Shown: positions 35,786 to 36,963 of the stretch, piece by piece
Numbering within the stretch: position 1 is the first letter of the stretch
Layout of the letters: the number at the start of each line of letters is the position of its first letter
From: an uncultured Candidatus Binatia bacterium
Lineage (GTDB): Bacteria; Desulfobacterota; Binatia; UBA9968; JAJDTQ01
Reading direction: 5' to 3'
Assembly (NCBI GenBank): GCA_958295985.1
Contig: OY282432.1
Span: 2,823,001-2,887,000 of the forward strand
DNA length: 64,000 nucleotides
Notes under the pieces: model-generated
Seen by the model: the letters and a program-made list of their open reading frames with translations, nothing else
Told to the model about the DNA's origin: nothing
The model's database searches: none
Position numbers and translations under genes: made by a program

Positions 35786-36352
35786 ATGGCAACTCACGAT
35801 CATCATCACCACCACGACCACGCGCATCGTCGCGGAGGCGGCGGCTATCGCTTCTGTCCCCGTTGCGCCGGGCCGCTGGCGCCGCGCACCCTCAAGGACA
35901 ACGAGCCCAGGCGGCTGGTGTGCGAGAAGTGTTCCTTCATCTTCTATCAGGACCCCAAGGTCGTTGCGGGAACCATCTGCACGCTGGACCGCGGCGTGGT
36001 GCTGCTGCGCCGCGGCATCGAGCCGGCCATGGGGAAGTGGGTCTTCCCCGGCGGTTACGTGGACCGGGGCGAAAGCACCACGGAAGCGGCGGTTCGCGAG
36101 ACTCGGGAGGAAAGCCGCCTGGAGGTGGTGACCCGATCGCTCCTGGGGGTGTATTCCTATCCCGGTTCGCCCAACGTGATCATCGTCTACGTGGCGGACG
36201 TGGTGGGAGGAACCCTCGCGGCCGGGGACGAGAGCACCGAAGCCGGAACCTTCCCGTTGTCGCGGATTCCCTGGGACGATCTCGCTTTTCCAAGCACCGT
36301 GGAAGCCCTCAAGGAGTTCGTGCGCCTTTGTGGCGCCGGGGAAATATGTTAG
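35786..36352 (+). CDS. Nudix hydrolase with His-rich N-terminus and zinc ribbon
   Basis: This 188-residue protein has a Nudix box (GYVDRGESTTEAAVRETREE, about residues 90-110), which hydrolyses nucleoside diphosphate compounds. Before it is a zinc ribbon (CPRC and CEKC, about residues 26-53), as in NADH pyrophosphatase-type and related Nudix proteins. The first 20 residues are unusually rich in His (HDHHHHHDHAH), which may bind a metal. The start ATG is preceded by AGGAAAGAG. The substrate is unknown. Confidence 0.88.
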   Translation: MATHDHHHHHDHAHRRGGGGYRFCPRCAGPLAPRTLKDNEPRRLVCEKCSFIFYQDPKVVAGTICTLDRGVVLLRRGIEPAMGKWVFPGGYVDRGESTTEAAVRETREESRLEVVTRSLLGVYSYPGSPNVIIVYVADVVGGTLAAGDESTEAGTFPLSRIPWDDLAFPSTVEALKEFVRLCGAGEIC

Positions 36353-36437
36353 GGATGTGTCTCACCAACAGGTTGCAAACGTGCCGGCCCTCGTTTGTGA
36401 AACACAACGCTGAACACCTCGGAAAGGAGATGGTTTG

Positions 36438-36896
36438 ATGGCGATGCCAAACGTGGGGGAGAAAGCCCCCGAATTCAGCCTGCCGGTGTCCCGGGACGAA
36501 AACGTGTCCCTGGGGGACTACGCGGGCAAGAAGAACGTCGTGCTGGCGTTCTACCCGCTGGATTTCACCGGCGGCTGAAAGCAGGAGTTGAGCAACTTCG
36601 AGGCTGACAAGGCCAGCTTCGAAGCCAAAGACGCTCAGGTTCTGAGCGTGAGTGTTGATTCGGTGTTTGCCCACAAGGCGTTTGCGGAGACCATGGGCGG
36701 GATCAGTTTCCCGATGTTGTCGGACTTCTTTCCCCACGGATCCGTCTGCGAGCAGTACGACTGCCTGCGTCCCCAGGGCTTTCCCAAGAGAGCGGTCTTC
36801 ATCATCGACAAGCAGGGAACCGTGCGGTTCGCCAAGGTCTACGAGGGCGGCATCCCGGAGAACAGCGACTTGTTGGCCGAGCTCGACAAGCTGTAG
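36438..36896 (+). CDS. Selenocysteine-containing peroxiredoxin (in-frame TGA read through)
   Basis: Read through one TGA, the frame gives a 152-residue peroxiredoxin. The TGA (36576-36578, codon 47) lies exactly at the peroxidatic cysteine in the PxxxTxxC signature: FYPLDFTGG-U-KQEL. Both sides are conserved peroxiredoxin sequence (AMPNVGEKAPEFSLP before; VLSVSVDSVFAHKAF, FPKRAVFIIDKQGTVRF after), and coding bias continues unbroken. A hairpin 17 bases past the TGA fits a bacterial SECIS element. Two cysteines (104, 109) could be resolving residues. Selenocysteine peroxiredoxins (PrxU) are known. AAGGAGA precedes the ATG with 7-base spacing. A nonsense mutation is the alternative but would be a coincidence at this codon. 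Confidence 0.9.
36596..36624 (+). promoter_or_regulatory. Candidate bacterial SECIS hairpin
   Basis: Arms CTTCGAGGCTG (36596-36606) and CAGCTTCGAAG (36614-36624) pair over 11 base pairs with a single G-U, closing a 7-base loop ACAAGGC. The stem starts 17 bases after the TGA, within the distance seen for bacterial SECIS elements, which recruit SelB. If the top pair opens, the loop starts with G as is usual. Confidence 0.75.
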
Positions 36897-36924: not shown

Positions 36925-36963
36925 AAACAGGGGGGCGGCGCATGCGTCGCCCCCCTGTTTTTC
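36925..36963 (+). terminator. Rho-independent terminator after the peroxiredoxin gene
   Basis: A long GC-rich inverted repeat (AAACAGGGGGGCG ... CGCCCCCCTGTTT, 36925-36960) is followed by a T run. It could serve both the peroxiredoxin gene and the convergent YgfZ-like gene. Confidence 0.85.

Follow-up and report, generated by a model that had tools for sequence, protein, structure and literature searches.

The window, a 64,000-nucleotide stretch of DNA from an uncultured Candidatus Binatia bacterium, carries at 36438-36896 on the forward strand a gene for an AhpE-like peroxiredoxin of 152 amino acids. The gene is a single frame whose sole TGA, codon 47 (36576-36578), falls at the peroxidatic position of the motif PLDFTGGU. 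A Shine-Dalgarno-like AAGGAG (36423-36429) lies 5' of the ATG at 36438, and a terminator-like element (36925-36962), consisting of a G+C-rich inverted repeat and then a run of T, lies 3' of the TAG stop. Both were recognized by reading the sequence, and the repeat is absent from the output of a terminator pattern scan. Its position after the TAG fits a gene that extends over the full frame. On the opposite strand a 142-codon open frame (36309-36737) overlaps the selenocysteine (Sec) region, and nothing marks it as a gene. A search of the window for further Sec genes, based on read-through frames with coding-like composition, passed 0 of 28 candidates; the known gene also failed the filter, so this count has no bearing on absence.

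The Pfam AhpC-TSA match (125.7 bits) covers residues 6 to 131 and spans the TGA, confirming the description in a sequence-only reading of a peroxiredoxin frame intact but for this codon. An AlphaFold model of the protein has a mean pLDDT of 87.8. In a Foldseek search against the PDB, the top 11 matches are all Mycobacterium tuberculosis AhpE, with a TM score of about 0.90 and 38% identity. The peroxidatic-site column is invariant among 28 aligned proteins. A check for a resolving Cys showed C104 and C109 in most of 24 close sequences, with neither present in all. The sequence-only reading had also set the protein beside selenoproteins of the PrxU type. The protein scores 79.4 bits against the NCBIfam PrxU model (NF040737), whose cut-off is 270. 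That model corresponds to the Sec-peroxiredoxin of Eubacterium acidaminophilum. The window protein is AhpE-like and below the PrxU family cut-off.

Conservation of the TGA and the Sec machinery

Matches to the window protein were found in 36 of the 58 genomes searched, its own included. Twenty-four of them, one from the window itself and 23 from relatives, cover the site at 64% identity or more, and each contains exactly one TGA, at the site; the match L032 begins 3' of the site and is outside this set. Relatives at 88-91% identity are labelled Candidatus Binatia, a class within the phylum Candidatus Binatota, and those at 93-95% are labelled only Deltaproteobacteria. Among 23 of the 24 close sequences (L016, cut at its end, was left out), codons 1-46 have a pN/pS of 0.20 and codons 48-152 one of 0.22, so selection is similar on the two sides of the TGA. 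A scan of the GTDB collection gave 491 relatives, of which the best 80 were kept. The site is legible in 108 loci and reads TGA in 95 and Cys in 13. Removal of identical stretches left 73 distinct Sec and 13 distinct Cys homologs, none of them chosen by RNA.

The host genome (4.29 Mb in 4 contigs, listed as 99.95% complete with 6.58% contamination) encodes a tRNA-Sec with anticodon TCA (73.1 bits) together with adjacent selA (580 bits), selB (376 bits) and selD (377 bits) genes, which bears out the expectation that the organism decodes UGA as Sec. Only one SelB scores above the cut-off. The selD gene has its own in-frame TGA, and SelD (L118:10206) is itself predicted to contain Sec. A truncated selA start with upstream sequence (L118:23-703, about C1:756022-756702; 97 model positions) sits roughly 6.6 kb before the intact selA, through either duplication or an assembly artefact. 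The selB gene ends in TGA, so UGA has a second use here, as a stop. From the TGA at the site in all close orthologs and the Sec machinery in the genome, we predict that 36438-36896 encodes a selenoprotein with one Sec, U47, at the peroxidatic residue.

Two other readings of the TGA were considered. A pseudogene, or a sequencing error at a Cys codon, would account for a stop inside a conserved frame, with TGC and TGT only one nucleotide away. Against this, the TGA is present in 23 of 23 relatives covering the site, pN/pS is about 0.2 on both sides and the Sec machinery is complete. The same relatives contradict a misread Cys codon at 36576-36578 and agree with the earlier placement of Sec at the peroxidatic residue; we regard this reading as refuted by the ortholog data and its probability as negligible. 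Genome-wide reassignment of UGA to another amino acid is no more credible. Such a code would allow the read-through, but selB ends in TGA, a tRNA-Sec with anticodon TCA is present, and those non-TGA relatives that were read have Cys at the homologous residue, all of which disfavour it.

Two hairpins within the coding frame

Downstream of the TGA and on the same strand are two hairpins, termed here helix I and helix II. Helix I (36596-36624) has 11 bp and a 7-nt loop (36607-36613), with an energy of -17.1 kcal/mol; it is present just as the sequence-only reading gave it. Helix II (36631-36649), which that reading did not mention, is the better conserved of the two. It pairs 36631-36638 with 36642-36649 (8 bp, -10.8 kcal/mol) around a GUU triloop (36639-36641) that starts 60 nt after the UGA. 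Rfam returned no SECIS family at the site, either for the window at gathering scores or around the site at E values up to 10. The reverse complement of helix II, on the minus strand, was scored as terminator-like, probably just reflecting a strong hairpin.

An alignment of the 24 close sequences shows helix I and a nearly invariant helix II, both with two-sided pair changes. To separate pairing from coding, we used a recoding control in which synonymous codons are drawn from each locus's own usage. The 73 Sec homologs form on average 7.68 of the 8 helix II pairs as Watson-Crick pairs (7.86 when G-U is included) versus 4.85 under recoding, and 59 of the 73 exceed recoding individually at p<0.05. 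The 13 Cys homologs have 5.23 of 8 pairs at this site versus 4.63 in the control, and none reaches p<0.05. When all positions were scanned in the 73 Sec homologs, the loop at +60 was the outlier (z 14.7), and in the Cys set no position rose above z 3.4. Synonymous change is low over helix II, with pS of 0.40 for codons 65-72 versus 0.68 for codons 73-152. A plain triloop search is less specific: the longest stem that it finds in the window gene is a different one, with 10 pairs when G-U is counted and its loop at +79, and in 13 of the 73 homologs the longest stem is away from +60.

Folded alone, the 40-nt segment between +12 and +51 after the UGA forms one hairpin, helix I, in 73 of 73 Sec homologs. 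The region is more stable than its synonymous recodings in every one of them (mean z -2.55). The helix I loop starts a median of 27 nt after the UGA (range 23-31). Among 4000 recodings of the window gene alone, 1.7% had 8/8 helix II pairs, 0.9% matched the stability of helix I and 0.05% did both. If the first bases after the UGA are included in the fold, the helix II strand can instead pair at long range with about the same stability (-30.1 kcal/mol). We rejected this pairing, the upstream strand of which differs in most relatives and which is absent from their consensus fold.

Adding paralogs brings the number of distinct Sec sequences to 92. Of these, 77 count as far-type, having either 7 or more of the 8 pairs or 6 inner pairs, and 15 do not. 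One of the 15, L101, with 6 of 8 pairs and an A-C mismatch at the closing pair, was afterwards reclassed as far, giving 78 far-type sequences. This set is selected by helix II itself, and its helix II figures depend on that selection: 97.9% of helix II cells are paired versus 50% in the best slid register, at least 7 pairs occur in 77 of 78 versus 14.3 expected under recoding, the mean pair probability is 0.99, and the tree requires at least 20 changes between Watson-Crick pair types. The loop opens with GU in all 78, but the invariant Val codon demands GU too, so this is not independent evidence. Helix I loops vary in size and sequence and carry G[G/U] in only 3 of the 78. With helix I looped out, 20-31 nt separate the UGA from the helix II loop in all 78 far-type sequences, and about 31 nt in the window gene, a value partly set by the 40-nt folding window. 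The helix I energy test is stronger evidence than the collapsed path length.

For comparison with known elements we applied the constraints of the bacterial SECIS model of bSECISearch as described in the accessible part of PMC13188914, in place of the program itself. There the loop lies 16-37 nt after the UGA, the stem has 4-16 bp, the loop has 3-9 nt with a G in its first two positions, and the MFE is at most -7.5 kcal/mol. Helix II is within the stem, loop, G and MFE limits but outside the distance limit, at 60 nt versus 16-37 nt; the path with helix I looped out falls inside that range. For helix I of the window gene to agree with the near model, its last G-C pair has to be opened; the loop then starts at 27 nt and the energy is -12.3 kcal/mol. 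Near-model matches at helix I occur in 13 of the 73 homologs versus 6% expected under recoding.

Both helices accompany Sec

In the class of the Zixibacteria genome G070, the protein occurs in 84 of 132 genomes. Among the 88 matches listed, 14 have a TGA and 74 are without a stop. The comparison covers every one of the 14 TGA rows and, from the other 74, a set of 57 taken mainly from the strongest matches, together with loci of this group collected earlier. The class holds 14 distinct Sec sequences, 6 already in the first set and 8 new, and each of the 57 distinct non-TGA orthologs has Cys at the site. The Sec orthologs average 7.86 of 8 helix II pairs versus 5.28 under recoding, with 8/8 in 12, and their helix I z is -2.85. 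The Cys orthologs average 4.75 pairs versus 4.59 under recoding, with 8/8 in none and 7/8 in 4, and their helix I z is +0.10. By the presence rule used for the class (at least 7 pairs, 5 inner pairs and a GU loop), all 14 Sec sequences have helix II and none of the 57 Cys sequences does; two Cys rows pass without the GU clause. A helix I z below -1.5 is seen in the 14 Sec rows versus 3 of 57 Cys rows. The Sec/Cys label changes only about 4 times on the class tree, with two independent supported pairs, hence replication inside the class is small; across phyla it comes from the first set. Helices I and II therefore go with Sec and are missing, on average, from Cys homologs.

Many of the Cys orthologs in this class (among L157-L226) have an extra Cys at the former helix II region, in a D/N-C-Q-L motif. 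It may be a resolving Cys that arose together with the Cys form.

Fourteen Sec paralogs are other than far-type. Nine of these near-type paralogs (L124-L130, L135 and L136) have a 6-7 bp hairpin at +18 and lack helix II, three (L132-L134) have a weak GUU hairpin at +18, and L141 has a GUA hairpin at +16; no hairpin was found in L131. In the host genome, 5 of 9 AhpC-TSA matches, the window gene included, have one TGA. The other four carry candidate hairpins at +16, +16, +17 and, weakly, +25, and the selD gene has a candidate hairpin GGUGCAG-GUC-CUGCACC at +33, all given with no chance estimate. The helix II cap, CAG-GUN-CUG, recurs in this selD element. With a single SelB above the cut-off and candidate near elements beside the far one, one SelB appears to serve both kinds in this genome. 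By reading alone, four other host TGA genes (L141, L145, L146 and L147) look PrxQ/BCP-like, TlpA-like, peroxiredoxin-like and deiodinase-like. Elsewhere, SelB is above the cut-off in 19 of 20 chosen genomes with far-type genes, the exception being the MAG G077, and in 3 of 7 genomes with Cys forms.

Judged from the titles of the records and their NCBI lineage, the far type is found in about seven phyla: Binatota, Acidobacteriota, Bacillota, Zixibacteria, Wallbacteria, Chloroflexota (one MAG) and Myxococcota (two MAGs labelled Deltaproteobacteria). Cultured far-type examples include Tumebacillus, Ammoniphilus and Schinkia strains. L072, labelled Ignavibacterium, groups in the Zixibacteria class and is not counted separately. 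A tree of 112 proteins requires 3 changes for the far rows and 4 for the Cys rows, with the deep order unsure because of some long branches (L111, L112 and L141). A second far-type Sec-peroxiredoxin paralog (L034-L037, L120-L123 and L137) belongs to another family of the same order and is about 41-46% identical to the window protein.

A probable distant SelB site and its relation to known systems

The Sec codon, the machinery, selection on the two helices beyond coding and their tie to Sec are what the data show. The explanation that best fits them, and one that we consider probable, is a one-Sec AhpE-like peroxiredoxin in which helix II is the SelB site and helix I a spacer. SelB and Sec-tRNA would read the UGA at 36576-36578 as Sec, with SelB bound to helix II at the GU-containing loop that begins 60 nt downstream. 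Helix I would fold the intervening RNA away and bring the path to the helix II loop back into the usual range. That SelB binds helix II is, if anything, slightly better founded than the explanation as a whole; the spacer role of helix I is favoured with noticeably less assurance. The sequence-only reading had pointed to the 11-bp hairpin, 17 bases downstream of the TGA. That hairpin is probably the spacer helix, and the SECIS-like conserved hairpin is helix II. More generally, it seems fairly likely that these genes define a distinct and old class of bacterial SECIS, made of two hairpins, in which the SelB-binding one lies 60 nt downstream and a conserved hairpin of variable sequence shortens the path.

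The main competitor is that helix I is an ordinary SECIS, with its apical loop about 27 nt after the UGA, and helix II an accessory, for example a pausing or efficiency hairpin. Helix I does sit at the canonical distance, is stabler than the recoding controls in all 73 and, once one pair is opened, agrees with the near model in the window gene. Its loops, however, vary in size and sequence and seldom show the favoured G[G/U]; helix II has the cap topping the selD element, and most near-type paralogs combine the +18 hairpin with a missing helix II. We hold this competitor to be unlikely, at roughly a quarter of the weight given to SelB binding at helix II. A much less probable view is that helix II is a by-product of the protein motif D-T/A-Q-V-L-G/S-V/I and no RNA element at all. 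This motif is palindrome-prone, as the pairing that survives recoding shows, the GU of the loop belongs to a Val codon, and a few Cys rows come within one pair of the full helix. Pairing in the 73 homologs, which were not selected for it, is nonetheless far above recoding, pS is depressed over the helix, and Cys orthologs average at the control level. On these grounds pairing forced by the protein is rejected.

Sec-peroxiredoxins are already known (PMC13188914, PMC1088965 and PMC1794560, in their accessible parts). According to the accessible part of a 2026 review, which there gives no description of the present element, a subset of bacterial elements fail the model (PMC13188914), so exceptions as such are known as well. 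In open PMC text, whose coverage is partial, with figures and supplements outside it and an earlier mention possible, neither a bacterial SECIS this far from its UGA nor a far two-hairpin element came to light. Within that scope the far two-hairpin arrangement would be new. A search limited to the published 16-37 nt would miss the far class or assign it the wrong hairpin. If the reading proposed here is true, it suggests that SelB and the ribosome require a certain distance in the folded RNA, not in the sequence, and the near, far and Cys orthologs would be a natural set for testing this idea.

The window protein shares fold, length and peroxidatic site with AhpE of M. tuberculosis (Rv2238c), a 1-Cys peroxiredoxin. 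The M. tuberculosis enzyme has Cys, whereas the window protein has a predicted Sec and RNA elements for its insertion. Like PrxU (NF040737), it has the Sec at a TxxU peroxidatic site, but PrxU is another peroxiredoxin subfamily (79 versus 270 bits). The E. coli element, as given in the accessible part of PMC8659212, is a stem-loop 11 nt from the UGA with G23 and U24 in the apical loop. Helix II resembles the bSECISearch model, so far as its accessible description goes, in its 8-bp stem, its small loop with G then U, and a covarying closing N1-N2 pair; it differs in lying at 60 nt with a conserved hairpin between. Within the same genome, the candidate loops of the other TGA redox genes lie at +16, +16, +17 and weakly +25 versus +60 for helix II, and the selD element has a CAG-GUC-CUG cap like that of helix II but with its loop at +33.
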